DNA from: Streptomyces sp. ISL-11
Lineage (GTDB): Bacteria; Actinomycetota; Actinomycetes; Streptomycetales; Streptomycetaceae
Length of the DNA stretch: 64,000 nucleotides
Assembly: GCF_018614525.1 (NCBI RefSeq)
Contig: NZ_JAGGOL010000029.1
Span: 62,001 to 126,000 of the forward strand
Direction of reading: 5' to 3'
In this document: in pieces, positions 2,552 through 40,898 of the stretch
How positions within the stretch are numbered: position 1 is the first letter of the stretch
How the letters are laid out: each line of letters begins with the position of its first letter
Made by a program: the position numbers and the translations under genes
Notes under the pieces: generated by a model
Told to the model about the DNA's origin: nothing
What the model saw: only the letters and a program-made list of their open reading frames with translations
The model's database searches: none

Positions 2552-2573
2552 GTGCGCGCGCCGGACGCCGTCC

Positions 2574-3158
2574 TCAAGCGGGGCGCAACCCCCGCAGGAC
2601 CAGGTCGCATACCGCCTCGAACGCCGCGTCGATCTCCGGGCGGGACCACTCCGCCGCGTACGCCGGGTCGTGGAAGCGGTTCGTCGCGTCCCAGACCGCC
2701 CGTGCCGTCATGACGGGGTCCACGGCCCCCAACTCGCCCTGAGCGACCCCATTTTCGACGATGCCGGCCAGCTGGCCGATCATCGTCTCGATGTGCCGCT
2801 CGACGACACCGCTGTTCTCGCCGACCAGGACCATGTACGTCGCGAACAGCTCGGGGTCGTCGCCCGCCTTGCGGCGCTTCGCCGCGAAGAGGGCGGTCAG
2901 CCACTCCCGCAGGCGCGGCTCGGCGGGCCCCTCCGCGTCGGCGACGGCGGACAGTGCGGTGTGCGACCGGTCGAGCCAGCGCTGGGTGACCGCCTCGCGG
3001 AGGGCGGCCTTGCTGCCGAAGTGGCGGTAGACGCTGCCGTGGCTGACGCCGAGGGCCCGCGCCACGTCGACCACCGTGGCCTTGGCCGGGCCGAAGCGGC
3101 GCAGCACGTCCTCGGTGGCTTCCAGGATGCGGGCGGGGGTCAGCGTCTCGGGCGGCAT
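2574..3158 (-). CDS. TetR-family transcriptional repressor
   Basis: About 194 residues. The N-terminus has a TetR helix-turn-helix: ILEATEDVLRRFG, then VVDVARALGVSHGSVYRHFGSKAALREAV. The helical C-terminal domain is the ligand-binding and dimer part (TetR_C class). The ORF is open 31 codons further upstream, but the ATG at 3158 is preceded by GAAAGG at a proper distance. It lies 89 nt downstream of the aldo/keto reductase gene on the same strand and probably forms an operon with it. The palindrome upstream of that gene is a good candidate operator. Confidence 0.88.
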   Translation of the reverse strand: MPPETLTPARILEATEDVLRRFGPAKATVVDVARALGVSHGSVYRHFGSKAALREAVTQRWLDRSHTALSAVADAEGPAEPRLREWLTALFAAKRRKAGDDPELFATYMVLVGENSGVVERHIETMIGQLAGIVENGVAQGELGAVDPVMTARAVWDATNRFHDPAYAAEWSRPEIDAAFEAVCDLVLRGLRPA

Positions 3159-3247
3159 CGGAGCGTACGGCCTTTCGGTTCGGGGCGGGGGCGCGGGGAG
3201 CCCCCTCAATGACCGTACCCCCCGGTCGCCGCGCCCCGCGGGGACGG

Positions 3248-4252
3248 TCACTTCTCGCTGTCGAGGTGCGCCATCTGGTCCGTCGGGTAGCGGTCGCCCG
3301 CCGCCGCGCCGGCCGGGACGGCCCGCTCGATGGCGGCGAGGTCGGCCGCTTCCAGCTTGACGTCGAGCGCGCCCAGCGCCTCCGCGAGGCGGTCGCGGCG
3401 GCGGGCGCCGACCAGGGGGACGATGTCCTCGCCGCGCGAGAGGACCCAGGCGATGGCGGTCTGGGCGACGGTGGCGTCCTTCGCCTCGGCGACCTCGCGG
3501 AGCGCCTCGACCAGGTCCAGGTTGTGCTGGAGGTTCTCGCCCTGGAAGCGCGGGCTCATGCCGCGGAAGTCATTCGCGGCGAGCTGCCGGTCGCGGGTGA
3601 AGTGGCCGCTGATCAGGCCGCGCGAGAGCACACCGTACGCCGTGACGCCGATGCCCAGTTCACGCAGGGTGGGCAGGATGTCGTCCTCGATGCCGCGTGA
3701 GATCAGCGAGTACTCGATCTGGAGGTCGGCGATCGGCGCGACGGCGGCCGCGCGGCGGATGGTGTCGGCGTTGACCTCGGAGAGGCCGATGTGCCGGACG
3801 TGGCCGGCCTCGACCAGCTCGGCGATGGCGCCGACGGTCTCCTCGATCGGGACGTCCGGGTCGAGGCGGGCGAGCCGGTAGACGTCGATGTGGTCGGTGC
3901 CCAGGCGCTGCAGCGAGTACGCGGCGAAGTTCTTGACCGCGTTCGGGCTGCCGTCGACGCCGGTGAAGCCGCCCTCGACGGTGCGCAGGGCGCCGAACTT
4001 CACGCTGGTCAGGGCCCTTTCGCGGGCGCCGGCGGGGGCGGTGCGCAGCGCTTCGTTGATGAGCAGTTCGTTGTGGCCCATGCCGTAGAAGTCGCCGGTG
4101 TCGATCAGGGTGACGCCGGCGTCGAGTGCGGCGTGGATCGTGGCGATCGACTCGGCGCGGTCGGCGTCGCCGTAGAGGGCGGACATGCCCATCGCGCCGA
4201 GGCCGAGAGCGGATACCTGCGGGCCGGTGGTGCCGAGAGTGCGGTGCTGCAC
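3248..4252 (-). CDS. Aldo/keto reductase
   Basis: A 334-residue NADPH-dependent oxidoreductase of the AKR superfamily (AKR11/13-like, YajO/PLR type). Catalytic residues of the tetrad are visible: D51 and Y56 in TLIDTGDFYG, Lys in LTSVKFG and His in TDHIDVYR. The TIM-barrel fold runs from the first strand (VSALGLGAMGMS) to the NADP-binding end (VGARRRDRLAEAL). A GTG at 4252 with AAGGAG 6 nt upstream is chosen over the longer reading from 4330. It probably detoxifies carbonyls. The TetR gene follows on the same strand and a perfect 14-bp inverted repeat lies 79 nt upstream of the start, which suggests substrate-induced derepression. Confidence 0.9.
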   Translation of the reverse strand: MQHRTLGTTGPQVSALGLGAMGMSALYGDADRAESIATIHAALDAGVTLIDTGDFYGMGHNELLINEALRTAPAGARERALTSVKFGALRTVEGGFTGVDGSPNAVKNFAAYSLQRLGTDHIDVYRLARLDPDVPIEETVGAIAELVEAGHVRHIGLSEVNADTIRRAAAVAPIADLQIEYSLISRGIEDDILPTLRELGIGVTAYGVLSRGLISGHFTRDRQLAANDFRGMSPRFQGENLQHNLDLVEALREVAEAKDATVAQTAIAWVLSRGEDIVPLVGARRRDRLAEALGALDVKLEAADLAAIERAVPAGAAAGDRYPTDQMAHLDSEK

Positions 4253-4330
4253 GGGGGACTCCTTCACGGGGCTGCGGGAACCGGTGCGCGAGAGCGCGCA
4301 CGGGTTCCGGGTACACAGGAAGAGTGACAC

Positions 4331-4364
4331 ATGGAATGACAGATTTCAATATCTGTCATTCCAT
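4331..4364. promoter_or_regulatory. Perfect 14-bp palindrome, probable TetR operator
   Basis: ATGGAATGACAGAT, 6-nt loop TTCAAT, ATCTGTCATTCCAT. The arms match perfectly and the site is very AT-rich compared with its surroundings. It lies upstream of the AKR-TetR pair and downstream of the MFS gene. No T-tract follows in either direction, so an operator is more likely than a terminator. Confidence 0.6.
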
Positions 4365-4405
4365 CTCCTCTCTCCTCGTGTCCCTGTGCGCCCGCACCAG
4401 CGATT

Positions 4406-5872
4406 TCAAGCCAGCTTGCGCGGCAGTCGCAGGCTCAACGCCAGTGTCACGGCCGTCACCACCAGATGCGCGCCGAGCGTCACCACCACGGCATCCCGCA
4501 TCGCCATGGACCCCGACAGCGACAGGAAGAGCGAGCCGAGCGTGGCCACGCCGAGGGCCATGAACGACTGCTGGGTCGTGGTCATCACACCGCCGCCCAC
4601 CCCGGCCTGCGCCACCGGCACCTCGCTCAGCACGACCCGCAGCGTCATCGGCAGCAGCAGCCCGTTGCCCAGCCCCAGCACGGCCAGCGACGGCCCGGGA
4701 CCGACCGCGCCCAGCCCGTCCCAGCCCCAGTGGAAGGTCGCGGCCAGCCCCAGCAGGCCCGCCACCTGGAACAGCGCGCCGGCGGTCACCGCCCGCCGCC
4801 CGAACCGCGCCGCCAGCCGGGGCCCGGCCAGCGAACCGAGCAGGAAGGTCACGCACAGCGGCAGCAGCGCCAGCCCGGCCGCCAGCGGACCCAGCCGCAG
4901 GCCCTCCTGCAGCGCCACCGCCAGGACGAACATGAAGCCGCCCCAGCCCAGGGAGAACGGCACCAGCAGCGCCAGCCCGGTGCGCACCGAGTGCACCCGC
5001 AGCAGCGACGGCGGCACCAGCGGCGTCCGCCCGGCGGCCTCCTCGCGCCGCTCCACCAGGACGAACGCCACGGCCGCCACGGGGAAGACCGCCAGCAGCA
5101 TCCACGCCCACACCGGCCACCCCGTCGCCCGGCCCTCCGTCAGCGGCAGCAGCAGCGAGATCAGCGTCAGCGACAGCAGAACGGTGCCCCGCCCGTCCAC
5201 CCGCGTCGGACGGTCCGAGCGCGTCTCGGGGACCGTACGCACCGCCAGCAGCAGCGCGAACGCCGCGACCGGCGCGTTCACCAGGAAGATCGAGCGCCAG
5301 CCGGTGCCCCAGAGGTCCACGGAGACCAGGACGCCGCCGAGCACCTGCCCCACCGACGCCGCGACCCCGGCCGTGCCGCTGTACAGGCTCAGCGCCTTGG
5401 TGCGCCGCGCCCCGGCGGTCGTGGCCTGGATCGTCGCCAGCACCTGCGGCAGCATCAGCGCCGATGCCGCGCCCTGCGCCACGCGGGCGGCGACCAGCGA
5501 CCAGGCGTCCGGCGCCAGCCCGCAGGCCACGGACGTCACCCCGAACGCGGCCGTCCCCCAGAGGAACAGCCGCCTGCGGCCGACCATGTCGCCCAGCCGC
5601 CCGCCGAGGACGAGCAGCACGGCGTACGCGACGCCGTAGCCCCCGACGACCATCTCCAGCAGGGCCGGGCCGGCGTGCAGGTCGTGGTCGATGGTGGGCA
5701 GGGCGACGTTGACGATGAAGAAGTCGACCATCGGCAGCGCCGCACCGATCAGCACGGTGAACAGGCCCAGCGGGCGCAACGCGGAGGAGGGGCCGGTGGG
5801 GCCGGCGGCGGCCGCCGGGGAGAGGGGGGCCGGCCGGACGTCTGTACGGGTATCGCTTCGGGTATCGCTCAC
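4406..5872 (-). CDS. MFS multidrug exporter (DHA2, 14-TM type)
   Basis: A 488-residue integral membrane protein of the EmrB/QacA (DHA2) branch of the major facilitator superfamily. TM1 carries the family hallmark DFFIVNVALPTI, TM2-3 GGRLGDMVGRRRLF, and TM5 has the proton-antiport motif C-like GQVLGGVLVS region. About 14 hydrophobic segments are seen. It should expel hydrophobic drugs in exchange for protons. The start is GTG at 5872 without a Shine-Dalgarno site. It is divergent from the MmyB-type regulator at 5974, and the 101-nt gap holds several GGTAC repeats, so that regulator probably controls it. Confidence 0.9.
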   Translation of the reverse strand: MSDTRSDTRTDVRPAPLSPAAAAGPTGPSSALRPLGLFTVLIGAALPMVDFFIVNVALPTIDHDLHAGPALLEMVVGGYGVAYAVLLVLGGRLGDMVGRRRLFLWGTAAFGVTSVACGLAPDAWSLVAARVAQGAASALMLPQVLATIQATTAGARRTKALSLYSGTAGVAASVGQVLGGVLVSVDLWGTGWRSIFLVNAPVAAFALLLAVRTVPETRSDRPTRVDGRGTVLLSLTLISLLLPLTEGRATGWPVWAWMLLAVFPVAAVAFVLVERREEAAGRTPLVPPSLLRVHSVRTGLALLVPFSLGWGGFMFVLAVALQEGLRLGPLAAGLALLPLCVTFLLGSLAGPRLAARFGRRAVTAGALFQVAGLLGLAATFHWGWDGLGAVGPGPSLAVLGLGNGLLLPMTLRVVLSEVPVAQAGVGGGVMTTTQQSFMALGVATLGSLFLSLSGSMAMRDAVVVTLGAHLVVTAVTLALSLRLPRKLA

Positions 5873-5884
5873 GCAGTAGACGAT

Positions 5885-5941
5885 GCCGGTACCGCCAGCC
5901 TGGTACCAGAGCCTCCTTATCCTGGTACAAGTACTACCTGG
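5885..5941. promoter_or_regulatory. Cluster of GGTAC-centred repeats between divergent genes
   Basis: Three GGTAC cores occur in 57 nt: GCCGGTACCGCC (about 5885-5896), the perfect palindrome CTGGTACCAG (5900-5909), and CCTGGTACAAGTACTACCTGG (5921-5941). The spacing suits binding of a dimeric helix-turn-helix protein, likely the MmyB-type regulator encoded alongside. Confidence 0.5.
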
Positions 5942-5973
5942 AACGGGGCCGCCGCGTCCCGCACGCTGGAGGC

Positions 5974-6870
5974 ATGAGCACGATGCTGCAGGAGCCCCCT
6001 ACCGCCGTCGTCGCCGTGCCCACGGCCGGCGACGTCCGCCGGGGCGAGCTGGCCGCCTTTCTGCGCAGCCGCCGCGAACGCGTCTCCCCCGAGGAGGCCG
6101 GCCTGCCGCGCGGCCCCCGGCGCCGCACCCCCGGCCTGCGCCGCGAGGAGGTCGCGCACCTCGCCGCGGTGGGCGTCACCTGGTACACGTGGCTGGAGCA
6201 GGCACGGGACATCAAGGTCTCCGCGCAGGTCCTGGACGCCATCGCCCGCGCCCTGCGGCTCGACCGCGGCGAGCGCAGCCACCTCTTCGCCCTCGCCGGC
6301 ACCGTCGACCCCATGCCGGACACCGGTTGCGCGGGCGTCTCGACGGAGCTGCGGCTGATGCTGGAGCAACTGGACCCGCTCCCCGCCTGCGTCCAGAACG
6401 CCCGTTACGACATCCTGGCCCACAACCGCGCGTACGGGCGGCTGGTGGCCGACCTCGACGCGCTGCCGCCCGACGAGCGCAACTGCATGTGGCTCACCTT
6501 CACCCACCCCGACTGGCGGGACGCCTTCGCCGACCGTGAGGAGGTGATCCGGGCGATGGCCGCGAAGTTCCGCGCCGCGATGGCCGGACACATCGCCGAT
6601 CCCGCCTGGAAGTGCCTGCTCAAGCGGCTCCTGGACGCCTCGCCCGAGTTCCGCGCGCTGTGGGCGCGGCACGAGGTCGCCCCGCCCACCGCCTACGGCA
6701 CCCGGATGTTCCGGCAGCCCGACGTGGGCCTGCTCCGGCTGCGCCAGACCAGCCTGTGGGTCGCCCCGCACGCGGGCGGCCGGCTGGTGAGCTTCACCCC
6801 CGTCGACGACGAGTCGCGCCGGAGGCTGGAGCGGCTGGGCGAGATCCTCCGCGCGGAGTCAGCCCGCTGA
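5974..6870 (+). CDS. MmyB-type XRE transcriptional regulator
   Basis: 298 residues with an N-terminal helix-turn-helix (LRREEVAHLAAVGVTWYTWLEQ, shown in part) and the C-terminal MmyB-like PAS-fold ligand domain (ILAHNRAYGRLV, CMWLTFTHPDWRD, FRALWARHEV). These proteins bind fatty-acid-like ligands in solved homologues. It is divergent from the DHA2 exporter and probably represses it. Its last codons overlap the convergent MarR gene by 12 nt. Confidence 0.9.
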   Translation: MSTMLQEPPTAVVAVPTAGDVRRGELAAFLRSRRERVSPEEAGLPRGPRRRTPGLRREEVAHLAAVGVTWYTWLEQARDIKVSAQVLDAIARALRLDRGERSHLFALAGTVDPMPDTGCAGVSTELRLMLEQLDPLPACVQNARYDILAHNRAYGRLVADLDALPPDERNCMWLTFTHPDWRDAFADREEVIRAMAAKFRAAMAGHIADPAWKCLLKRLLDASPEFRALWARHEVAPPTAYGTRMFRQPDVGLLRLRQTSLWVAPHAGGRLVSFTPVDDESRRRLERLGEILRAESAR

Positions 6871-7317
6871 GCCGTCCGGGCCGTTCCCGGGCCGCCGCGC
6901 CAGCCGGGCCGCGATGCGGTCCAGCGCCGCGAGGTCGTCCTCGGGCAGGTCGAGCAGGGCGGCCGGGGGAGTGCCGAGGATCCGCTCGGCGCGTTCGGCG
7001 GCCTCCCGGCCCGCCGCCGTGACCGAGACGATCTTCGATCGGCGGTCGGCGGGGTTGGCGGTGCGTTCCACGAGACCGCGCCCGGCGAGGTCGTCGACCA
7101 CCAGGGTGGTGTACGGACGGTCGGTCAGCAGCTCCTCCGCGAGTTCGCGCAGCGTGAGCGGACGCCGGGCGAGCCTGCGCAGCGCCTTCACGCGGAAGAA
7201 GCTCATGCCGAGCGCGTCGATGACCTCCTTGCGGCGCTCGTTGCCGCCCAGGACGATCTCCCGGAGGTTGGCCCAGGCGCGCTGCGCGGCTGCCGGCGTG
7301 GTCTCGTGCGTGGTCAT
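6859..7317 (-). CDS. MarR-family regulator
   Basis: A 152-residue winged-helix regulator. The recognition region reads LTLRELAEELLTDRPYTTLV followed by the wing DRRSKIVSVTAAG, the usual DxRxxx..LT MarR signature. The ATG at 7317 overlaps the TGA of the upstream exporter gene (ATGA), so both are translated together from one mRNA. It most likely senses a substrate of that exporter and binds the AT-rich inverted repeat at 8753-8789. Confidence 0.9.
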   Translation of the reverse strand: MTTHETTPAAAQRAWANLREIVLGGNERRKEVIDALGMSFFRVKALRRLARRPLTLRELAEELLTDRPYTTLVVDDLAGRGLVERTANPADRRSKIVSVTAAGREAAERAERILGTPPAALLDLPEDDLAALDRIAARLARRPGNGPDGSAG

Positions 7318-8723
7318 GGTGTCGTCACCGGGATCCTCTGGTCGGAGTCGAGGCGCGCGGTGGTTCGCGCGGCGGTTCCGGCGGCCCAGCGGCCGGTGGT
7401 GATCGTACCGAGGACCAGGACGGACAGCCCGCAGCCGGTGATGATCCACCAGCCCGCCGACCGGGATCCGGCGGCGACGGCCGCGCCGATCACGGCGACG
7501 CCGAGCGAGCTGCCGACCTGCCGGCTGGTCGAGGCGATCGCCGCGGCCACCCCGGCGCGCGAGCGCGGCATGCCGGAGACGGCGGTGTTGGTGATCGGTG
7601 CGTTCACCAGCCCGAAGCCGGTGCCGAAGAGGACGTAGGCGGTGAACAGCAGGCCGTCGGAGGACCGGGCGTCGAGGACCGTGAACAGCAGGCCGCTGGC
7701 GGTCATGGCCGCGCCCGCCAGCAGGAGCGGCAGCCGGGGGCCGCGGGCGCCGACGAGCCGGCCCGACAGCGGCGCGCAGACCAGGCACATGACGGCCATC
7801 GGCAGCATGAACAGCCCCGCGTCGAGCGCGGAGAGGCCGCGTTCGCTCTGCAGGTAGAGGTTGTTGAGGAAGAGGAAGCCGCCGAGCGCCGCGAAGGCGC
7901 TGACGGCGATGACCGTGGCGCCGCCGAACGGGACGCTGCGGAAGAACGCCGGCTCGATCAGCGGCTCGGTGCGCCGCCGCTCGTAGGCCGGCAGGACGGC
8001 GAGGGAGCCGGCCGCGACGGTGAAGCAGCCCAGGATCAGCGGCGAGGTCCAGCCCGCGGCGGGGCCCTCGATGATCCCGTACGTCATCGAACCGAGCAGC
8101 GTGATCACCAGCAGCTGGCCGACCGGGTCGACCCGGCGTGGCTTCGGGGCGCGGGACTCGGGGATGTGGCGGGCGGTCAGGAACAGGGCGAGCAGGCCGA
8201 CCGGCAGGTTGATCCAGAAGATCGAGCGCCAGCCGACCGACTCCACGAGCGCGCCGCCGAGCAGCGGCCCGGCGGCCATGCTGATGCCGACGACGCCGCC
8301 CCAGACGCCGATCGCCCGGGCGCGTTCCCGGGGCTCGGTGAAGGTGTTGGTGATGATCGACATCGCGACGGGATTGAGCATCGAGCCGCCCACGGCCTGG
8401 ACGGTCCGGAAGGCGATCAGCCAGCCCAGGCCCGGCGCAAGGCTGCACAGCAGCGATCCGGTGGTGAACAGCACCAGGCCGGCCTGGAACACCCGCTTGC
8501 GGCCGATCCGGTCGGCGGTCGAGCCGGCGAGCATCAGCAGCGAGGCGAGGACGAGCGTGTAGGCGTCGATGATCCACTGCAGGCCGGAGACGGAGGCGTG
8601 GAGCTCCTGCCGCAGGGACGGCAGGGCCACGTTGAGGATCGTGATGTCGAGGCTGACGAGCAGCAGGCTCGTACAGCAGATGGCCAGGACGAGCAGACGA
8701 CGGCGGTGCGAGAGCTCGGGCAC
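7314..8723 (-). CDS. MFS multidrug exporter (DHA2 type)
   Basis: 469 residues, 14 predicted membrane segments. TM1 carries LLLVSLDITILNVALPSL, followed by STADRIGRKRVF (motif A) and GPLLGGALVES (motif C), all typical of DHA2 drug:H+ antiporters. Start GTG at 8723 with GAGGAG 4 nt upstream. It is the first gene of a two-gene operon with the MarR regulator, which begins inside its stop codon. The exported compound is unknown. Confidence 0.9.
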   Translation of the reverse strand: MPELSHRRRLLVLAICCTSLLLVSLDITILNVALPSLRQELHASVSGLQWIIDAYTLVLASLLMLAGSTADRIGRKRVFQAGLVLFTTGSLLCSLAPGLGWLIAFRTVQAVGGSMLNPVAMSIITNTFTEPRERARAIGVWGGVVGISMAAGPLLGGALVESVGWRSIFWINLPVGLLALFLTARHIPESRAPKPRRVDPVGQLLVITLLGSMTYGIIEGPAAGWTSPLILGCFTVAAGSLAVLPAYERRRTEPLIEPAFFRSVPFGGATVIAVSAFAALGGFLFLNNLYLQSERGLSALDAGLFMLPMAVMCLVCAPLSGRLVGARGPRLPLLLAGAAMTASGLLFTVLDARSSDGLLFTAYVLFGTGFGLVNAPITNTAVSGMPRSRAGVAAAIASTSRQVGSSLGVAVIGAAVAAGSRSAGWWIITGCGLSVLVLGTITTGRWAAGTAARTTARLDSDQRIPVTTP

Positions 8724-8752
8724 GGGGCTCCTCGGAAGGATGATGACAGATC

Positions 8753-8789
8753 TAGTTGTATGAATGTAATCGTTTTAGCTCTACAACTA
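8753..8789. promoter_or_regulatory. AT-rich inverted repeat, probable MarR operator
   Basis: TAGTTGTA (8753-8760) and TACAACTA (8782-8789) are perfect 8-bp arms 21 nt apart in an unusually AT-rich stretch between the exporter-MarR operon and dus. MarR regulators commonly bind such half-sites over their own promoter. Confidence 0.5.
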
Positions 8790-8821
8790 AAGGGGGTGGG
8801 TGCGTACGGGACAATGGAGGC

Positions 8822-10015
8822 ATGACCCAAGACGCCGCCTCGCCGCTCTCCATCGGTCCGCACTCGGTGTGGCCGCCGGTGGTGCTCGCCCCCATGGCGG
8901 GGATCACCAACGCGCCCTTCCGCACGCTCTGCCGCGAATTCGCCGAAGGCGCCGGCTGGGGGTCTGGGGGTTATCCCCCGGAAAGGCACAGTTCCGGCGG
9001 CAAGGGGCTCTTCGTCAGCGAGATGATCACCACCCGGGCGCTCGTCGAGCGGGACGCCAAGACGATGCGGCTGATCCACTTCGACGGCACCGAGAAGCCG
9101 CGCTCGATCCAGCTCTACGGGGTCGACCCGGTGACCGTCGGCAAGGCCGTCCGCATGATCGTGGACGAGGGCCTGGCCGACCACATCGACCTCAACTTCG
9201 GCTGCCCGGTCCCCAAGGTCACCCGCAAGGGCGGCGGCTCGGCGCTGCCGTACAAGCGCAACCTGCTGCGCTCGATCCTGCGCGAGGCCGTCGCCAACGC
9301 CGGCTCCCTGCCGGTCACCATGAAGATGCGCAAGGGCATCGACGACGACCACATCACCTACCTCGACGCCGGCCGGATCGCCGTCGAGGAGGGCGTCACG
9401 GCCATCGCGCTGCACGGCCGCACGGCGGCGCAGCACTACAGCGGTACGGCCGACTGGGAGGCCATCGCGCGCCTGAAGGAGGCCGTCCCGGAGATACCGG
9501 TCCTCGGCAACGGCGACATCTGGTCGGCGGAGGACGCCGTGCGGATGATGCGCGAGACCGGCTGCGACGGCGTCGTGGTCGGCCGGGGCTGCCTGGGCCG
9601 TCCGTGGCTCTTCGGCGACCTGGTGGCCGCCTTCGAGGGCGGCGGGGCGCCGGCGGCGCCCACCTTCGGGGAGGTGGCCCGCGTCATGGTGCGCCATGCG
9701 CGGCTGCTGGGGGAGTGGCTGGGGAGCGAGGAGCGCGGGGTCGTCGACTTCCGCAAGCACGTCGCCTGGTACACCAAGGGCTTCTCCGTCGGCTCGGAGG
9801 CGCGGAAGAAGCTGGCAATCGCCTCATCGCTGGACGAAATGGACGCTCTTCTGAGCGGGCTCGATCTGGACCAGTCCTGGCCCGTCGGCGCGAACGGGCC
9901 CCGTGGGCGTACGTCCGGCCGTGACCGCGTCGTGCTCCCGGACGGCTGGCTGAACGACCCGTACGACTGCGCGGCCGTCGGGGCGGACGCGGAACTTGAT
10001 ACATCCGGTGGCTGA
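8822..10015 (+). CDS. dus: tRNA-dihydrouridine synthase
   Basis: A 397-residue FMN enzyme that reduces uridines in the D-loop of tRNA. Dus signatures are present: VLAPMAGITNAPFRTLC (FMN binding), IDLNFGCPVPKVTRKGGGS with the catalytic Cys, LHGRTAAQHYSG, GNGDI and VGRGCLGRPW. After FRTLCREF there is an extra run of about 17 residues (AEGAGWGSGGYPPERHS) before GGKGLFVSEM that family members normally lack; it is encoded by a G5/C5 palindromic DNA segment. The ATG at 8822 is preceded by GACAAT ending 6 nt before it, and the GGAGG is only 1 nt from the ATG, so the mRNA may be leaderless. Confidence 0.93.
   Translation: MTQDAASPLSIGPHSVWPPVVLAPMAGITNAPFRTLCREFAEGAGWGSGGYPPERHSSGGKGLFVSEMITTRALVERDAKTMRLIHFDGTEKPRSIQLYGVDPVTVGKAVRMIVDEGLADHIDLNFGCPVPKVTRKGGGSALPYKRNLLRSILREAVANAGSLPVTMKMRKGIDDDHITYLDAGRIAVEEGVTAIALHGRTAAQHYSGTADWEAIARLKEAVPEIPVLGNGDIWSAEDAVRMMRETGCDGVVVGRGCLGRPWLFGDLVAAFEGGGAPAAPTFGEVARVMVRHARLLGEWLGSEERGVVDFRKHVAWYTKGFSVGSEARKKLAIASSLDEMDALLSGLDLDQSWPVGANGPRGRTSGRDRVVLPDGWLNDPYDCAAVGADAELDTSGG
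8950..8993 (+). repeat. In-frame palindromic insertion inside dus
   Basis: The segment contains GGGGG TTAT CCCCC (8966-8979) within a TGGGGGTCTGGGGGTTAT context and length divisible by three. It encodes a Gly/Pro-rich peptide at the surface loop between the first strand and GLFVSEM. It looks like a small mobile palindromic element fixed in frame. Confidence 0.5.
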
Positions 10016-10086
10016 GCGGCGTGATTCTCGCCACCTGTGATCAGGGTGGCGCTCAGATGAGCGGCTAGAATCGGGATCTATCTTTT

Positions 10087-10113
10087 GAGGGGTGGCACTG
10101 GGTGCCACCCCTC
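10087..10113 (+). terminator. Terminator hairpin after dus
   Basis: GAGGGGTGGCAC, loop TGG, GTGCCACCCCTC: a perfect 12-bp stem followed by TTGCGTT. It lies 72 nt after the dus stop codon. Confidence 0.75.
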
Positions 10114-10394
10114 TTGCGTTCACTTCTCGACGTTGAAGCCGTTCGATCATCGACGGTGCGTGATTCCCTCCGTGCTCTTTGTCATCCTGAGTTCAAGACT
10201 TGAACATGACACTCTCCAGCCCTTTTCCGGACCGTGACTTTCGATCTGCTGGCAGACGGGTGGTTACGGCCGCATGACCGTGGAGTGGACCTCCTCAGAC
10301 GCCTTCGATCTGGGTACGCTCCCCGCCGTCAGCACGTTTGAGCAGGCCCTCCCCCAACTGTGTACGGGGGGACCCCAGTGAGGAGTCGAGTCCC
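10114..10394. other. Intergenic region upstream of ppdK
   Basis: About 280 nt without a plausible gene. It probably carries the ppdK promoter (no confident -35/-10 pair could be fixed). At 10347-10376 lies a C-rich/G-rich hairpin (TCCCCC, 10-nt loop, GGGGGGA) of a type seen repeatedly in Streptomyces leaders; it ends about 20 nt before the ppdK start. Confidence 0.4.
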
Positions 10395-13109
<2,715 letters not shown>

Positions 13110-34653: not shown

Positions 34654-34727
34654 GGGGCGGTAGCTCAGCCGGTTAGAGCAGCGGACTCATAATCCGTCGG
34701 CCGTGGGTTCGAGTCCCACCCGCCCCA
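34654..34727 (+). tRNA. tRNA with CAT anticodon (elongator Met or Ile2)
   Basis: 74 nt. Acceptor GGGGCGG/CCGCCCC with discriminator A, anticodon arm GCGGACTCATAATCCGT, T arm GTGGGTTCGAGTCCCAC. CAT can be elongator methionine or, after lysidine modification, isoleucine; the fully paired G1-C72 end excludes initiator tRNA. CCA is not encoded. A small hairpin GCGCACA GA TGTGCGC lies at 34623-34638 just upstream. Confidence 0.93.
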
Positions 34728-35038
34728 CTCACGCGATGTTGTGCAGAAACGATGCAACCTGCGGTTTCCGTGCCCCGACTGGTTTCGATCAGGCGGGGCA
34801 CAGTGCTGTTGGGGGCCGGTTGCGCGAGCGGTGCGTGAGCGCGGTGGCGAAGGATACGGCCTGACGAGCCCGGGACATGAGCCTGGCGGCCTCCAGGTCG
34901 ATCTCGAGCGGCAGGCTCGTACGGGTGTCCGAGATCAGCGCGCTCTTGGCTGCGCTCGGCCTTTGGATGATGGAGGCCGGCCGAAGGCTTGAGGAGCGGT
35001 GACTGTGCCAACGATCAGGCAAGGGCACCGGCGGGAAG
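34728..35038. other. Region between tRNA-CAT and the accessory cassette
   Basis: 311 nt. It starts with a hairpin GTGCCCCG/CGGGGCAC (34770-34801) that may end the tRNA transcript. Beyond it no convincing gene is seen; a minus-strand frame 34789-35028 shows no known motif and may be remnant sequence of an element inserted next to the tRNA. Confidence 0.4.
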
Positions 35039-35920
35039 TCAGCCCGTTTCCTCTGTGGCTGTTTTCCGGGCTCCGTCCAGCCCGGTCATTGCCGCGTCGA
35101 AGCCGGACGTGACCGGTGGCTTCGGGCTCGGAAGCCTTCGCGGCGCGGTGGTCACCGCAAGCCGGGTCAGGCTGGTGCCCACGGCGTCGGGGCCATGCCG
35201 CATGAGTGCCCACAGCGCACTGATCTCGCGGCTGGACTCCCAGATTCCGTGCTCGGGGGCCGCGAAAGCGGTGACCGTCAGATGGTGTTCGAGGAACGGT
35301 TGGTGATCGAGGTAGTTCATGCCTCCTGGCCCGCACAGGTAGCCATGGCAGCCGGTCGCGTGTGTGAGGTCCGCGAGGCGTTGCGAGCGTTCCGGTCGGG
35401 ACGGCAGGTCGCTGCTGTGAAGGACTCGTCCCTGCCAACCGAGCAGATCCAGCAGAAGGACGGTGGACGCCTCGGCCACTACCGCTGTCCGGTCGGTCGC
35501 TGTGAACAGGCGGAGCACCCTCTCGAGCTCACCGCTCAGGACGGGCCAGTGGGGGCCGGCCCCGTAGTACCACTGAACCATCCGTGCGGTCCGTCGCCCT
35601 GAGCGCACAGGCTCAGCCATCAGGGCCTCGCGGAGGACCGTCTGACGGCCTCGCGGCAGGTGCGTGGGAATGGACAGCCATTGGCGGCTCTGGGGATCAC
35701 TCAGAGCTGCCAGGCGGGTCCGGTGCTGGTAGTCGCGGCGGGCGAACTGAACGTCGTCCAGGACGATCCAGAAGTCCGCTGCGAACAGCTTGGCCAGCGT
35801 GTGAAGCCGCGGGGACAGGTTGGGCTGGTGGATGGCGCACAGCCCGCCCCCGGCGTGGTGCTCAGACCTTGAGGAGGCGGCTGTCGAAGCCGGCTGCGAG
35901 GAGAGATTCGTACGCGGCAT
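35039..35920 (-). CDS. WbqC-family protein
   Basis: 293 residues. The WbqC signature is clear: CAIHQPNLSPRLHTLAKLF, FWIVLDDVQFARRDYQHRTR and WLSIPT, with later YLDHQPFLEHHLTV. WbqC-like proteins occur in O-antigen and other glycan or amino-sugar clusters, but their reaction is not established. The ATG at 35920, with GGAGG 6 nt upstream, lies 59 nt inside the preceding YdcF-like gene, so both are tightly coupled. About 24 residues precede the conserved domain. Confidence 0.85.
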   Translation of the reverse strand: MPRTNLSSQPASTAASSRSEHHAGGGLCAIHQPNLSPRLHTLAKLFAADFWIVLDDVQFARRDYQHRTRLAALSDPQSRQWLSIPTHLPRGRQTVLREALMAEPVRSGRRTARMVQWYYGAGPHWPVLSGELERVLRLFTATDRTAVVAEASTVLLLDLLGWQGRVLHSSDLPSRPERSQRLADLTHATGCHGYLCGPGGMNYLDHQPFLEHHLTVTAFAAPEHGIWESSREISALWALMRHGPDAVGTSLTRLAVTTAPRRLPSPKPPVTSGFDAAMTGLDGARKTATEETG

Positions 35921-36530
35921 ATACGTCCTCCGGGACGTCCTGCCCGATGGCGAAGTCGAGCTTCGGATACTCGATCACCCGCTGCAGGTCCCCGACGAGC
36001 TGGTCGACGACGAGCTGTTCGTCGCCGATCGTCTTGAGGTAGTCGTCGAACTCCAGTGGGGCCGAGGCACAGACCACCTCGACCTCGGGCCACACCTTGC
36101 GGGCGGTGGCGCAGGCACGTCGTTCCATGTAGGGCATGGAGACCAGCAGCACGGTCCTCACAGCGATCCCGGTGGCGGCCAGGACATCGCGGGAGAGAGT
36201 GATGTTCTGCCCGGTGTTCCTGGCGTTGGGCTCCAGCAGAACTGCTTCCGCAGGCACGCCGAGGGCGAGCGCGTGCTCGCGGAAGTGCACGGCCTCGCCG
36301 CGCGGGAAGCGGTCGGGGGCGGTGGGGTTGGAGCCGCCGGAGAAGACGAGTGTGGGGAACAGCCCGGCCCGATACAGCTCGGCACAGAACGCGGGGACCC
36401 CGAGGTCGTGGCTGCCCAGGCCGATCGCGGCGTCGCAGGGCCGAGCTTTGTGGTGCATCTGGTGGTAGTCCCAGATCAGCTTGGCATGCCGGCGCTGGTC
36501 GTCGGTGATGGCCCGCTGGTTGTCGCTCAC
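35862..36530 (-). CDS. YdcF-family (DUF218) protein
   Basis: 222 residues, no membrane anchor. DUF218 motifs: AAIGLGSHDLGVPAF, LVFSGGSNP, RGEAVHFREHALALGV, VLLEPNARNTGQNITLSRDVL and LVSMPYMERRACATA. E. coli YdcF binds S-adenosylmethionine; the activity is unknown. It is cytosolic here, unlike the membrane-bound SanA-type relative at 24688. It follows the XRE regulator gene by 16 nt and overlaps the WbqC-like gene by 59 nt. Confidence 0.87.
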   Translation of the reverse strand: MSDNQRAITDDQRRHAKLIWDYHQMHHKARPCDAAIGLGSHDLGVPAFCAELYRAGLFPTLVFSGGSNPTAPDRFPRGEAVHFREHALALGVPAEAVLLEPNARNTGQNITLSRDVLAATGIAVRTVLLVSMPYMERRACATARKVWPEVEVVCASAPLEFDDYLKTIGDEQLVVDQLVGDLQRVIEYPKLDFAIGQDVPEDVYAAYESLLAAGFDSRLLKV

Positions 36531-36546
36531 TCGCGTCTCTCCCTGG

Positions 36547-37644
36547 TCACCGCCGCCGTGGGCCGTCCGCCCCCGCGGTCGTGGTCCGGATGCTCTCGAT
36601 GCTGCTCAGCTGGTGGCTCATGCCACATCGCGTGGCCAGCTTCGCAGCCAGGTCGAGGGCCTGGAGCCCATCATCCCGGGTGGCAGGGTCGGACAGCAGG
36701 ATGTGTCCGTGGGCGGTGTTCAGGCGCACACGCTGCATCGGCGAGTCGGTGGCGCCGGTGCTCCGGGCGATGTCGATGAAGTGCAGGGCACTGGCGAGGT
36801 CGCCGGCGCCCCGGTGGGCAAGGGCAAGCTTCTGATGGGCGACCGACCAGTCGTCGGGCTCGGCGAGGTCTTCGAAGTCGCGGGTCGCGGCGAGCATGAC
36901 CCGGGTCGCGTAGTCGTGGTTGCCGTCTTTGCTCAGCGCGGTTCCCACCCACAGGCGGGCCCGGGCGCGGTCGCGGCGGGCAAGCCGGTCGTCGACGGCG
37001 AGGCGCTCGTACTGGCGAGCGGCAGTTTCCAGACGACCGGACATCTCCGCGACGACTGCGAGCGAGAGGTCGAGCTGGGCGACGCGGCGGGGGATATCGA
37101 GCTGGCTGAAGATCGAGCGGGCTCCGGCGTACGCGTGCTGGGCCGACAGCGGCCCCAGCACCGCCCCTTGGTCGCGCTTGAGGTCACCTGACAAGGCGGT
37201 GGAGCGGGCGAGGAGGTACAGGCCCTTGTCGTCCAGTTGCGGGGTAGCGAAGCGGGACAGCCACCTGCCCAGCAGACTGTCGGCGAAAGAGAAGTTCTGC
37301 CTGCTCAGGGCGACAACGATGCGGTCCAGGTCATCGGTCCACGATTCGTACTCCCATGCCCTGGGGCCTGCCGCGGTGATCCGTCGACCTGTTGCGAGCG
37401 GCTTGTCGGCCTCGGACAGGAACGTCTCGAACCGTAGATGCGCTGCCGCGTCCGCCCTCGCGAGCGCGGTGTCCAAGATCGCCTGAGTGTCCGAACGAGG
37501 CTCGATCGAAGCCAGGAGCTTTTCCCACTTGGAGATGGTCCGGACGGCGACACCGAGGTGTCCGGCGAACGCGCGGACACTCATTCGCAGCGCGAGACGC
37601 AGGGCTCTGGCCTCCAGGCCGGTCCAGTGGTGCACGGTCGCCAC
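36547..37644 (-). CDS. XRE-family regulator with helical-repeat sensor region
   Basis: 365 residues. Helix-turn-helix near the N-terminus: SVRAFAGHLGVAVRTISKWE. The remaining 280 residues are TPR-like helices (LLARSTALSGDLKRDQ, ETAARQYERLA, AHQKLALAHRGAGDLASAL). Proteins of this build stand beside small biosynthetic or signalling cassettes in Streptomyces. It is the first gene of the leftward operon and is divergent from the rightward operon at 37829, so it may control both. Confidence 0.85.
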   Translation of the reverse strand: MATVHHWTGLEARALRLALRMSVRAFAGHLGVAVRTISKWEKLLASIEPRSDTQAILDTALARADAAAHLRFETFLSEADKPLATGRRITAAGPRAWEYESWTDDLDRIVVALSRQNFSFADSLLGRWLSRFATPQLDDKGLYLLARSTALSGDLKRDQGAVLGPLSAQHAYAGARSIFSQLDIPRRVAQLDLSLAVVAEMSGRLETAARQYERLAVDDRLARRDRARARLWVGTALSKDGNHDYATRVMLAATRDFEDLAEPDDWSVAHQKLALAHRGAGDLASALHFIDIARSTGATDSPMQRVRLNTAHGHILLSDPATRDDGLQALDLAAKLATRCGMSHQLSSIESIRTTTAGADGPRRR

Positions 37645-37828
37645 GCGTCGCTCCCTTCCGAGAGCTCATGCAAGCACGGTCGGTTCATGCAGGGGGACGG
37701 AAGTACAACGCAAGTGCAACACGAGGTCATTTCGTCGCCGTTCGTGAGCGAGGACGCTGCAAGAGGCAGGCCAAGCCCCAGCCCCGGGCCGCCTCCTTTG
37801 CAGCCCCCGAGCTCTTGGACGGTCACAC

Positions 37829-38269
37829 GTGATGGAACCCCTTACCGAACACCGTCGGGTCAGCGGCCCGGTCGTCTATGGCTTTCTGCGGCTGATCAAC
37901 ATCTCCGACGCCCGGCAGGCCGCGCTGTCGGCATCGCTGGCCGAGTACTGCCACCAGCACGAACTGTCGTTGTGCGGCGTCTTCACCGAGTGCACGACTG
38001 TCGTGCCCTCGGGGGCTTTCACCGGACTGATGGACGTGCTGGAGCTGCCCGACACCTACGGTGTCGTGCTGCCCGCCATGTCCCACCTGGGCCCCCGGGC
38101 CATAGCCACCGGTCGAGGCAAACGCATCGCAGCGGCCGGGGCCCGGCTGTTGCTCGTCCGAGGCGACAAAAAGCCGTCTCCACCTCACCACGGGCTCTCC
38201 GGACCGGCCGGCGTCCTGTCCCGGCACCGTGGGCGGGGCCCTGCACCAGCCCTGGAGGCGGAGTCATGA
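37829..38269 (+). CDS. Small recombinase-like or unknown protein
   Basis: 146 residues. The first 110 residues have the outline of a serine-recombinase N-terminal domain (VVYGFLRLINISDARQAALS, YGVVLPAMSHLG), but the catalytic Ser of the RVS motif is replaced (RLINIS) and there is no DNA-binding domain, so it is not an active recombinase. GTG 37829 and ATG 37832 are both possible starts. It heads the rightward operon and overlaps the next gene by ATGA. Confidence 0.6.
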   Translation: MMEPLTEHRRVSGPVVYGFLRLINISDARQAALSASLAEYCHQHELSLCGVFTECTTVVPSGAFTGLMDVLELPDTYGVVLPAMSHLGPRAIATGRGKRIAAAGARLLLVRGDKKPSPPHHGLSGPAGVLSRHRGRGPAPALEAES

Positions 38270-38694
38270 GGCTGACCTTGCCCGACATCGACCAGCGAAC
38301 CTTCGACTCGGTGCCCGACTCGGTCGGCCGGGCCCGAGACTTCACCGACAAGTCCCTCCTCGCCTGGGGATTGGACGCCCTCGCGGACGACGTCCGGCTG
38401 TGTGTCTCCGAGCTGGCGACCAACGCGGTCGTCCACGGGACCGACCACAGCACTGATCAGAACTTCCTGGTCCGGCTCATCGCCGACGACCGCTACGTCC
38501 ACCTCGAAGTGCACGACGATCACCACCTCTGGCCCGAGCGCCGCCAGGCGGATGAAGGTGACCTTTCAGGGCGCGGACTGGGCCTGGTCGCCGCACTCTC
38601 TGCCGGGTGGTGCGTCGAACCCCGCCAGCCGTCCGGAAAGATCGTCTGGACGCGTTTCGAGATCGCACCTGCTCCACGGGAGACGTCATGCTGA
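38266..38694 (+). CDS. RsbW-like ATP-binding protein (anti-sigma-type HATPase)
   Basis: 142 residues of the GHKL fold. N box ELATNAVVHG, G1-like HDDHHLWPE and G2 GRGLGLVAAL. Such single-domain proteins are anti-sigma kinases or their orphan relatives, very numerous in Streptomyces. Its ATG overlaps the stop of the preceding gene and its own end overlaps the next gene by 7 nt. Partner unknown. Confidence 0.87.
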   Translation: MRLTLPDIDQRTFDSVPDSVGRARDFTDKSLLAWGLDALADDVRLCVSELATNAVVHGTDHSTDQNFLVRLIADDRYVHLEVHDDHHLWPERRQADEGDLSGRGLGLVAALSAGWCVEPRQPSGKIVWTRFEIAPAPRETSC

Positions 38695-39170
38695 CGCGCG
38701 CCCTGACGCCCGCTCCCTTGTCCGGGCCCGGTCCATGTTTGCTGGTCTCGCTCAGCACCTGGACCTGGTCCGGCACCGATCCGGTCGGGCAGGACGTTGC
38801 CCACATCCTGCTGGCCCACCCGCCCGGCCGCAGCGGCCGCGATGCCCCGGAGGCCATCGCCTCCCGGATGCGGCACATCGCGGCCAGCCTCGGCGGACTG
38901 GCCGGCTCTCGTGGCAGCCTTCCGGAACTTGATGGCCGCCTGCATGTCGTCGGCGACCGGGTATTGCTGAAGTTCCATGGATCCCGCTACGGCCTGCGTC
39001 TGCCGATGTATCCCGGCTGGACCAGCCTCCTCGCCCGCCGGGGCAGAGCCGTCCTGATCGTGGGCCTGGACCCGTTGCCGCAGTCCGCAGATGCCGCCCG
39101 AGTCGACGCATACATCGACGCTGCTCCGGCGGCCGGCCGACTTCTCTTCGGCCTCGCTCGTACCCCCTGA
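38688..39170 (+). CDS. Conserved Streptomyces-type protein of unknown function
   Basis: 160 residues, soluble, no known motif that I can name. Segments: LLVSLSTWTWSGTDPVGQDV, HVVGDRVLLKFHGSRYGLRL and RAVLIVGLDPLPQSADA. The ATG at 38688 has GGGAG 5 nt upstream and overlaps the stop of the ATPase gene. It must be co-translated with its neighbours in the rightward operon. Confidence 0.7.
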   Translation: MLTRALTPAPLSGPGPCLLVSLSTWTWSGTDPVGQDVAHILLAHPPGRSGRDAPEAIASRMRHIAASLGGLAGSRGSLPELDGRLHVVGDRVLLKFHGSRYGLRLPMYPGWTSLLARRGRAVLIVGLDPLPQSADAARVDAYIDAAPAAGRLLFGLARTP

Positions 39171-39227
39171 CTCCACTACCGGCCACCCCTGCACGACACC
39201 ACGCACTGCAACTGAGAGGGAACTGCC

Positions 39228-40350
39228 ATGGAACCCTTCGAACGTGCCCGGCTGGACGCCTACTTCGCAAAGGTCGCCACCCAGTTCGTCCCGGCCGAAC
39301 AGGCCACGTCGTTCCTGGTCACGCACTTGCTCGCCGAGCGCCCGGCATTCGTCCGTGCAGTCGCGGCCATGAGCCGGCTGCGGGCCGTGCTGCCCAAGCC
39401 GAAGTCCGTCAACGCCGTCGCGCAGCGCGAGGTCGAGCAGGCCATCCCCTGCGACACGCTCTCACGGGAGCTCTTCACCGACCCCGACACCGCCTTGAAC
39501 TACCTCGAATCCCGGGCTCCCGGCGAGAGTGTCGTCCTGCTGGACGTCGGCGGCTACTTCACCCCCACCATCAGCGAGCTTCACAGCCGCTACTCCGGTC
39601 AGGTCCTCGGCGTCATCGAAGACACCGAGAACGGACACCGCCGCTACGCCGAGGTCGACAAGCTGCCGTGCCCCGTCGTTTCGGTCGCTCGCTCGCCACT
39701 GAAGGATCCCGAGGACTTCCTCGTCGGCCAGTCCGTCGTCTTCTCCACAGAAGCCGTGATGCGCGCCCGAGGGGGACATCCTCCACGGCCGCCCTGCCTT
39801 GGTGATCGGCTTCGGCAAGCTCGGTAGCTCCATCGCTCGCCTGCTCCATGCCAAGGGCGTCCAGGTCATCGTCTACGACATCGACCCCGTCCGCCGCACC
39901 CAGGCCCTCTCTCAGGGTTTCGTTGTCGCCCGCGACCGCGAAGCCACCCTGGCCGGCGCCGGGCTGGTGCTCTGCGCGACCGGCTCCCTCTCCCTACAGG
40001 GCGAGGATTTCCCGCATCTGCGCAACGGCGCCTACGTCGCCACCGTCACCAGCAGCGAGGACGAGCTGGAGCTGGACGGCCTGCCGGACGTTTACACCCG
40101 CACGGCGGCCGGCGAGCACGTCACGCGCTACCAGACCACTGGCCATTACTTCTACCTGGCCAACGGCGGGAACGCCGTCAACTTCCTGCACGGCGCGAGC
40201 GTCGGACCGTTCATCTTCCTGGTCCAGGCCGAAATACTGGCCGCGATCAGGATGCTCACCCGCGCTGATCTCGCCCCCGGCATGCACGAGGTCAGCGCCA
40301 ACGACCGAGCCGCTATCGCGGCGACCTGGCTCTCCTACTTCAACAGGTGA
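39228..40350 (+). pseudogene. S-adenosylhomocysteinase-like NAD-binding protein with a frameshift
   Basis: The first part (39228 to about 39768) gives LPKPKSVNAVAQREVEQA, VLLDVGGYFTPT and GVIEDTENGHRRY. The second part (in frame from about 39769) gives EGDILHGRPALVIGFGKLGS, a Rossmann NAD site, then VYDIDPVRRTQA and a C-terminal domain. The two fit one protein of about 373 residues if one C of CCC (39766-39768) is extra. The layout resembles the NAD domain of adenosylhomocysteinase, but the substrate-binding residues are not seen. It may be a pseudogene, a sequencing error or a programmed +1 shift at GCC-CGA. NUDIX starts at its TGA (GTGA). Confidence 0.75.
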
Positions 40351-40898
40351 TCGATTTGGCCATCACGGCAGACCACATCCGCACCACCATCAGCAGCTAC
40401 CTCGATGAGCATCCCGAAGAGAGGCCCGCCCTCGCCCCCGTCCCCGACCTCCTGGACGCTGGAGCCGACCTCACCAGCCGCAAGGAGTTCCGCGGCCACG
40501 CGACGGCCGGCGCCATTCTGGCCGGGCAAGACGGACGCGTCCTGCACATCCACCACCTCGCCCTGGACACCTGGCTCCTGCCTGGCGGCCATCTGGAAGC
40601 CGAGGACGAGACGCTGCTGGACGCAGCCCTGCGCGAACTCAGCGAGGAGACGGGCATCCCCTCCGATGCCGTCACGCCGATGAGCGACTGTCCGATCCAC
40701 ATCGACGTCCACCTCATCCCGGCCAGCGACGCCAAAGGCGAGCCGGAGCACCAGCACTTCGACTTTCGGTTCCTCTTTCGAACCACAGCCGAGGTGGGTC
40801 AGCTCCAAGCTGAAGAAGTGACCGACGCGGCATGGCGTGACATTGACACGATGGGTGACGGACACATGCGGCAGAGGGTCGCCGTTGCCCTCCCCTGA
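40347..40898 (+). CDS. NUDIX hydrolase
   Basis: 183 residues. The NUDIX box reads GGHLEAEDETLLDAALRELS followed by EETGI, complete and with all metal-binding Glu residues. It hydrolyses a nucleoside diphosphate linked to another group; the substrate is unknown. An N-terminal helical extension of about 50 residues precedes the domain. GTG overlaps the stop of the SAHH-like gene. It is the last gene of the rightward operon. Confidence 0.92.
   Translation: MIDLAITADHIRTTISSYLDEHPEERPALAPVPDLLDAGADLTSRKEFRGHATAGAILAGQDGRVLHIHHLALDTWLLPGGHLEAEDETLLDAALRELSEETGIPSDAVTPMSDCPIHIDVHLIPASDAKGEPEHQHFDFRFLFRTTAEVGQLQAEEVTDAAWRDIDTMGDGHMRQRVAVALP

Follow-up and report, generated by a model that had tools for sequence, protein, structure and literature searches.

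A divergent gene cassette beside tRNA-Met

The window, as the whole 64,000-nucleotide stretch of Streptomyces sp. ISL-11 analysed here is called (contig NZ_JAGGOL010000029.1, positions 62,001 to 126,000), carries a divergent cassette of eight genes beside a tRNA-Met(CAT) gene, and this cassette is the subject of the present study. A first-pass annotation, made from the letters alone, had named its genes and placed them there, and tRNA and domain searches bore this out. Six genes are referred to as the chassis: WbqC, YdcF and XRE/TPR leftward, and resolvase-like, RsbW-like and DUF5949-like rightward. The two remaining genes, encoding an S-adenosylhomocysteine hydrolase (SAHH)-like protein and a NUDIX hydrolase, are referred to as the payload. 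The features are as follows, in window positions:

34654-34728, + strand: tRNA-Met(CAT) gene (ARAGORN), downstream of two tRNA-Asn genes; conserved left edge of the cassette
35039-35920, - strand: WbqC-family gene, chassis (PF08889, E 2.3e-23, 83.6 bits against a cut-off of 21.3)
35862-36530, - strand: YdcF/DUF218 gene, chassis (PF02698, E 1.3e-16, 61.1 bits against a cut-off of 27.6)
36547-37644, - strand: XRE/TPR regulator gene, chassis (weak helix-turn-helix and TPR matches; HTH_3 20 bits, cut-off 23)
37645-37828, no strand: divergent intergenic region, the DNA separating the XRE/TPR and resolvase-like start codons
37701-37720, + strand: tandem AAGTNNAAC-NN-AAGTNNAAC of 11-bp period, a predicted operator, inside the divergent intergenic region
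37829-38269, + strand: degenerate resolvase-N-like gene without the catalytic Ser motif, chassis (resolvase resemblance by eye)
38266-38694, + strand: RsbW-like ATPase gene, chassis (HATPase_c_2, E 1.7e-15)
38688-39170, + strand: DUF5949-like gene, 160 aa, chassis (PF19374, E 2.1e-4, just below cut-off)
39228-40350, + strand: SAHH-like gene, payload, frameshifted (open reading frames 39228-39827 and 39799-40350; AdoHcyase_NAD E 3e-11 for the second half)
40347-40898, + strand: NUDIX hydrolase gene, payload (PF00293, E 7.8e-15), overlapping the SAHH-like gene by 4 bp

Four of the seven junctions between cassette genes are overlaps (59, 4, 7 and 4 bp) and three are gaps (16, 57 and 184 bp), so that the earlier description of the genes as nearly all overlapping was too strong. 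The less GC-extreme codon use that had been suspected holds in comparison with the flanks: GC content at third codon positions is 0.80-0.89 in the cassette genes, compared to 0.92-0.96 in five of the six flanking genes and 0.84 in the remaining one, and overall GC is 0.66-0.70 within the cassette against mostly 0.70-0.77 outside.

Distribution of the cassette

The N-terminal part of the SAHH-like protein was searched for in species genomes, and 80 of 104 relatives were kept as named loci (L numbers below). SAHH-like and NUDIX genes were both detected in 75 of these 80 loci and XRE and YdcF genes in 37, while all eight families were found in 22, in the order and on the strands of the window; the co-occurrence in other genomes that had been expected was thereby confirmed. 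Judged by sequence, the gene set is a case of conserved synteny and no chance neighbourhood. The genes are neither present in all Streptomyces nor limited to two per genome, the two patterns that the first-pass annotation had set against its own idea. Many genomes hold more than two of the families together, and across 295 genomes of the genus, fragments included, the SAHH-like N-terminus was found in 48 and the XRE protein (E 1e-30) in 56. XRE and SAHH-like genes are adjacent in 14 genus genomes (counted by eye), and 42 of the 56 genomes have the XRE gene without an adjoining SAHH-like gene.

Outside the genus, Planomonospora (L044), which belongs to another order, has the cassette, and its XRE protein branches with those of Streptomyces (support 81). 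A wider actinobacterial sample gave matches at E 1e-50 in 2 of 396 genomes, both Streptomyces, at a cut-off that excludes distant members. The XRE gene was also found on nine Streptomyces plasmid records. In the literature searched, mostly without subscription journals, no paper describing this gene set was found, which agrees with the initial impression that the system had not been described before.

A constant chassis carries exchangeable payloads

Chassis loci were assembled from 38 named loci, 40 fetched loci and the window, giving 79 in total. Of the 43 chassis places in the genus sample that lack an SAHH-like gene nearby, 40 were fetched, all but the fragments G030, G080 and G120. Payloads were tabulated for loci with an XRE match above 120 bits by looking within 4.5 kb. 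Most fetched loci carry WbqC, YdcF and XRE genes and, divergently, the resolvase-like gene; RsbW-like and DUF5949-like genes or a gene for another small protein come next, with other genes beyond. The SAHH-like/NUDIX payload is present at 37 of the 79 loci, and at one further locus with an added radical-SAM remnant; the others carry radical SAM (9), JmjC (4), aminoacyl-tRNA synthetase (aaRS)-like (6) or TrmO-type (4) payloads or none that was recognised (18), counts that are not population frequencies because the 38 named loci were found via the SAHH-like gene.

The SAHH-like, radical-SAM, JmjC and aaRS-like payloads all lie downstream in operon direction at similar distances, and Pfam confirmed the radical SAM, JmjC, aldo/keto reductase, APH and ASCH assignments in one representative each. 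The radical-SAM gene adjoins a short peptide gene whose product carries ECSC(S/D)AGDD near its end in L171, L176 and L191, where the peptides were seen in full; no peptide gene was called in L172. A GNAT gene (L171) or a phosphotransferase-like gene follows in radical-SAM copies. The radical-SAM protein itself occurs in 54 of the 295 genus genomes, compared to 9 of the 79 chassis loci. The radical-SAM enzyme with its following short gene for a Cys-containing peptide resembles known radical-SAM peptide maturases of NCBIfam, such as those of mycofactocin and StsB; however, the likeness concerns chassis copies other than the window, the radical-SAM protein stays below the cut-off of the NCBIfam models among the matches listed (25 of 31), and the peptide has no family match.

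The JmjC payload (L186, L188, L193 and L195) comprises a conserved peptide of 47-48 residues, a JmjC protein, an aldo/keto reductase and phosphotransferase-family genes, an APH phosphotransferase-family gene closing it in L193; the peptide is possibly ribosomally made and modified. The aaRS-like payload encodes a 373-aa protein with HIGT- and KLSKS-like motifs, which I take to be class I aaRS signatures, and without a Pfam match in the copy scanned (L190). An ASCH gene follows in five of the six cases (L190, L196, L197, L199 and L202). The TrmO-type payload gene is convergent, with PF01980 in L189.

A quick XRE tree with one kind of support value was built from the 72 of 79 chassis loci that passed a coverage filter. 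The six payload labels required 25 changes on this tree, where the minimum is 5 and the shuffled mean 33.7, and none of 200 shuffles gave as few; the labels are thus clustered, yet often exchanged. Leaving out loci without a recognised payload reduced the count to 12. The SAHH-like payload changes at least 6 times on well-supported branches, and two sister chassis (support 95) carry a JmjC payload in one case (L195) and an aaRS-like payload in the other (L197). The initial idea that all genes form a single metabolic pathway therefore gives way to a different reading, well supported by these comparisons, in which a constant regulatory chassis is combined with an exchangeable payload and each also exists alone.

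A tandem element in the divergent promoter region

Intergenic regions were taken from 69 chassis loci, and alignment of those measuring 121-259 bp made conserved runs visible. The AAGTNNAAC tandem occurs once in the 6.67-Mb genome, with at most one mismatch allowed on either strand, and arose in no shuffle of the window sequence. Of 75 chassis loci, 53 have its exact form in the intergenic region, and it matches nowhere else across the 1.09 Mb of these loci; it was absent from 42 named loci without the chassis. Payload identity does not restrict it: the exact tandem accompanies the SAHH-like payload in 25 of 37 cases, radical SAM in 8 of 9, JmjC in 4 of 4, aaRS-like in 6 of 6 and TrmO-type in 1 of 4, as well as 9 of 15 loci without a recognised payload. 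I read the tandem as the predicted operator of the XRE/TPR protein, which is presumed to be the sensor and local regulator of the cassette.

Chassis proteins

YdcF of other chassis loci that have it is 53-89% identical to the copy in the related locus L049 (Streptomyces sp. PH10-H1). E. coli YdcF binds S-adenosylmethionine (SAM). The resolvase-like protein gave no Pfam or NCBIfam match up to E 1. In serine recombinases and resolvases the catalytic Ser sits in a YxRVS motif, and this active-site motif is absent from an alignment of 12 orthologues of the cassette protein, contrary to its first description as recombinase-like. The gene at the DUF5949-like position of one plasmid copy carries the annotation DUF5949.

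For WbqC, a structure model of the L049 protein (pLDDT 82.8) had bacillithiol synthase BshC as its nearest structure (Z 13.8, root-mean-square deviation (rmsd) 3.5, 225 of 265 residues, 12% identity), the next match reaching Z 7.8; Foldseek alone gave no match below E 0.001. The chassis protein is, however, half as long as BshC. A nucleotidyltransferase/ligase-like fold is predicted, and ligase chemistry is a hint only.

The SAHH-like protein and its NUDIX partner

Most relatives encode the SAHH-like protein in a single open frame of about 373 aa. The first-pass annotation was right that an SAHH homologue is present; in the window its gene is broken into two frames where a run of G near 39772 carries a +1 shift. 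Compared with L049, the two halves show nonsynonymous divergence (dN) of 0.145 and 0.070 and synonymous divergence (dS) of 0.515 and 0.341, that is, dN/dS of about 0.28 and 0.21. Since both halves are under apparent purifying selection, the lesion is either recent or an assembly error in this 219-contig draft, and the two origins cannot be told apart. Unless it is such a sequence error, the window copy may be inactive. Programmed frameshifting is disfavoured, as most relatives have the single open frame.

The model of the L049 protein (pLDDT 90.2) matches SAHH over its whole length (best match Z 36.6, rmsd 3.4, 358 residues aligned, 21% identity), and the SAHH fold with its NAD-binding domain is present (PF00670, E 9e-14 in L049). 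A housekeeping SAH hydrolase is encoded separately in the genome: it scores 637.5 bits with TIGR00936, above the equivalog cut-off of 497.6, while the C-terminal half of the window protein reaches 50.5 bits.

Compared with the housekeeping enzyme, six SAHH-like homologues keep equivalents of Lys185, Asp189 and the N-terminal His54 together with the NAD-binding Rossmann motif, the rat SAHH numbering being presumably placed correctly on this alignment. Changed in the same six are the likely equivalents of Asp130 (to Val or Ile), Glu155 (to Asp, Gly or Met) and Asn190 (to Phe, His or Ile). The second Asp of DDGG, the second Glu of EETTTG, the Asn after FD, two His of the C-terminal half (GHFD, GHPS) and the C-terminal tail are missing. 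His54, Asp130, Glu155, Lys185, Asp189 and Asn190 are the residues named in titles within the reference list of PMC8599513. The cassette protein thus has in common with SAHH (AhcY) the whole-length fold, the Rossmann motif, the Lys and Asp of 3'-oxidation and the N-terminal His, and differs in length (373 aa against about 485 aa). Because several catalytic residues are lost, although the oxidation Lys/Asp pair is kept, it is probably not an SAH hydrolase; it may retain C3' oxidation of a nucleoside-like substrate and have lost SAH hydrolysis. Ordinary SAH recycling was rejected on the residue losses and the separate housekeeping enzyme, and the SAM/SAH chemistry first suggested for the cassette is not supported by them either.

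A parallel for an SAHH-family protein recruited to nucleoside tailoring is AgmF, which PMC8599513 describes as an SAHH-family dehydratase of angustmycin A biosynthesis that keeps the key catalytic residues, with Lys185, Asp129, His56 and His299 proposed to act. Going by the alignment to housekeeping SAHH, in which AgmF itself was not included, the cassette family seems to keep only the Lys and the first His of these and to lack likely equivalents of Asp129 and His299.

The NUDIX box REUxEExGU is present in the partner protein, with R96, E97, E100, E101 and G103 invariant in 24 rows and a first Gly-to-Glu distance one residue above the usual consensus. SAHH-like and NUDIX genes often overlap by 4 bp in relatives. 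Single frames in L062 and L091 had pointed to an SAHH-NUDIX fusion, which is distrusted because the L062 pieces lie in two frames. Three relatives of the NUDIX protein scanned on Streptomyces plasmids contain three or four NUDIX stretches each; their contexts vary, and they gave no clue to function.

Distant homologues in nucleoside-like contexts

Homologues of the L049 SAHH-like protein were found in Lactiplantibacillus (34-35% identity), Rhizobium (38%) and Aeromonas (39%). On Lactiplantibacillus plasmids (L142, L143) the gene forms a three-gene unit with MFS and HD phosphohydrolase genes; it was matched on 45 plasmid records of that genus, some holding fragments only, and an HD gene also lies beside the homologue on Pediococcus records. 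No NUDIX or HD gene was noticed by eye next to the Rhizobium and Aeromonas homologues, an argument against such a partner being obligatory. The record carrying one of these loci, L146 (NZ_AP026896.1), is labelled an Aeromonas caviae plasmid and at 4.94 Mb is probably a chromosome.

A Staphylococcus epidermidis plasmid (NZ_CP121498.1; L159/L213, about 1654-10805) encodes a homologue that is 48% identical to the Lactiplantibacillus one, in a row with genes for an HpaB-type oxygenase, a NUDIX protein, an Xaa-Pro peptidase, a pyridoxal phosphate enzyme, a phosphoribosyltransferase, an HD protein, a LOG-family protein (TIGR00730) and an MFS transporter. This row looks like a nucleoside biosynthesis cluster, and no description of it was found in the literature searched. 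In the angustmycin cluster (PMC8599513), the LOG-kind phosphoribohydrolase AgmA, a phosphatase, a phosphoribosyltransferase, MFS exporters and AgmF act together. Both clusters contain a phosphatase or phosphohydrolase, a phosphoribosyltransferase and LOG-family, MFS and SAHH-family proteins.

Signs of mobility and the insertion site

Exact direct repeats of 21-71 bp lie just outside the cassette in 4 of 35 cassettes. A 36-bp repeat in L039 is the 3' end of tRNA-Thr, a 25-bp repeat in L033 is the 3' end of tRNA-Gly, a 71-bp repeat in L045 looks like the end of a DUF397 gene, and L063 has a 21-bp CRISPR-like repeat. Among 509 mismatched flank pairs used as a control, a single one attained 16 bp; because it measured 23 bp, the L063 repeat is not beyond the control by length alone. 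The Streptomyces sp. sk2.1 cassette at L063 lies between two CRISPR-like repeat stretches of the same orientation (4700-4900 and 9700-9950), with similar sequence after the repeats on both sides; no cas gene was noticed by eye among the listed gene starts.

The att-like repeat of the tRNA 3' end that the first-pass annotation had proposed to look for exists at two other copies (L039 and L033) and not in the window, where three ways of searching gave 11 bp at best and matches to tRNA 3' ends of 22/39 and 21/36 at best. The cassette looks foreign to its site, as had been suspected. The left flank was matched in 24 of 24 other genomes of the genus, up to the end of tRNA-Met in 22 and stopping at 34513 in 2. 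In 12 of 12 relatives read at the site, DNA similarity ends at window positions 34728-34819, and no cassette-like stretch was found within 15 kb of tRNA-Met. In the closest relative at the site, similarity stops at 34819 and resumes at 47624, which places the cassette inside a 12.8-kb variable region. Another genome repeats 46 bp of the tRNA-Met 3' end exactly, 6.4 kb beyond the tRNA (L223:6836-6881); this repeat probably marks a different element, so that this tRNA is probably used by some element.

Pfam found no integrase among the window cassette genes; some copies adjoin integrase-like or relaxase-like genes (by eye). In one predicted viral contig (L162, 4100-13538), an HTH/TPR-like regulator and the SAHH-like/NUDIX pair lie between an amidase-like gene (Amidase_2, just below cut-off) and a tyrosine integrase (PF00589), a usual place for accessory genes. 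In a second (L161), the pair adjoins a large serine recombinase (PF00239 and PF07508). The tRNA-Thr and tRNA-Gly 3'-end repeats, flanking one copy each, resemble those of actinomycete integrative elements at tRNA genes, from which the cassette differs in lacking an integrase of its own and in having two copies flanked by DUF397-end or CRISPR-like repeats. As read from these comparisons, a modular architecture with its own element and several copies showing signs of mobility is well supported.

Discussion

The explanation I favour, at about even confidence, is a small mobile cassette of two modules, in which a payload-independent chassis accompanies an enzyme payload that makes a modified nucleoside-type molecule. 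To the modules, their exchange, the unique element and the direct repeats around some copies, all read from sequence, it adds an inferred ligand, DNA binding, reaction and product. The XRE/TPR protein would bind the tandem AAGTNNAAC and switch both divergent operons in response to a small ligand, with the RsbW-like ATPase and the degenerate resolvase-like protein possibly acting in control. In the payload, the SAHH-like protein would use bound NAD and its Lys/Asp pair to oxidise the 3'-position of a nucleoside or nucleotide without SAH hydrolysis, and the NUDIX hydrolase would cut a pyrophosphate bond of the precursor or product. WbqC and YdcF, to judge by a BshC-like fold and by membership of the DUF218 family, might handle or finish a product, the outcome being a modified nucleoside-type small molecule. 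Other copies combine this chassis and element with peptide-modifying enzymes, so that the chassis has the look of a general vehicle for short biosynthetic payloads.

A bolder extension would make this a new class of mobile element, in which a sensor-and-ligase chassis with its own operator controls interchangeable payloads of 2-4 genes (nucleoside, peptide or aminoacyl), all yielding one kind of signal, secreted or intracellular, that the XRE/TPR protein reads back. This I offer tentatively, as a possibility with the balance rather against it.

Several observations weigh against the favoured explanation. The window copy itself carries a frameshift and has no direct repeats, and the exact tandem is missing in 22 of the 75 chassis loci. 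The chassis sample is biased, since the SAHH-like gene itself served to find 38 of its 79 loci, to which the window adds a 39th. No payload was recognised in 18 of the 79; among these, an insertion separates the chassis of L069 from its more distant SAHH-like gene, and a short SAHH-like remnant persists in L175 and L180. Four plasmid copies with incomplete gene tables also lack a recognised payload, unnamed same-strand genes following in some, and the chassis may thus have a function of its own. Conversely, the SAHH-like/NUDIX pair occurs without any other cassette family in 26 of the 80 named loci, and some of the chassis-free pairs adjoin other XRE regulators. Payload labels also group together on the XRE tree, so that inheritance explains part of the pattern. 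The nucleoside reading, finally, rests on homologues that are 34-39% identical where listed.

The layout of a sensor with swappable effectors would also suit a phage-conflict system, in which the SAHH-like/NUDIX payload depletes or alters nucleotides upon infection. The presence of the pair in predicted viral contigs (L162, L161), the direct repeats at tRNA ends of two copies and the phosphohydrolase partners in both Streptomyces and lactic-acid bacteria point the same way. Nevertheless, I regard this as unlikely: PADLOC matches were weak (E 0.041 for the NAD-binding part and 5.8e-4 for the NUDIX part, with a 2023 library, so that a family absent from it would be missed), 50,697 phage records held no SAHH-like (E 1e-10) or XRE (E 1e-20) match, the peptide-precursor payloads look biosynthetic, and so does the row of genes around the S. 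epidermidis homologue. Those same peptide-precursor payloads do not fit self-protection or detoxification either, by which the payload would destroy a nucleoside antibiotic or damaged nucleotide sensed by the XRE protein, and the S. epidermidis row adds a phosphoribosyltransferase and an exporter. This account, which I consider quite improbable, can draw on the XRE control, the scattered presence, the APH phosphotransferase-family gene closing the JmjC payload of L193, and the fact that NUDIX and HD enzymes are often house-cleaning enzymes.

It is also conceivable, at a low probability, that there is no functional link at all, the chassis being a selfish or regulatory hitch-hiker and the payloads passengers brought in by hot-spot recombination. 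Chassis copies without a recognised payload and payloads without a chassis speak for this; however, the recognised SAHH-like, radical-SAM, JmjC and aaRS-like payloads keep to the operon direction and to similar distances, 4-bp overlaps between SAHH-like and NUDIX genes are frequent, and the arrangement is conserved in Planomonospora (L044), in another order. Production of a SAM- or SAH-derived metabolite by the whole set, which the SAHH fold and the YdcF family had brought to mind, appears very improbable, given that several catalytic and adenine-binding residues of SAHH are changed, that a separate housekeeping SAHH exists, and that YdcF stays where the SAHH-like gene is replaced.

Should the modular reading prove right, one conserved regulator, one short element and six genes would give access to several small biosynthetic units not yet described, in roughly one fifth of the sampled genomes of the genus (56 of 295 have XRE relatives), and products of silent payloads could come to light once the regulator is switched. 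A divergent branch of the SAHH family, stretching from Streptomyces to lactic-acid bacteria, would then have left SAH metabolism, and its annotation as adenosylhomocysteinase would be misleading.

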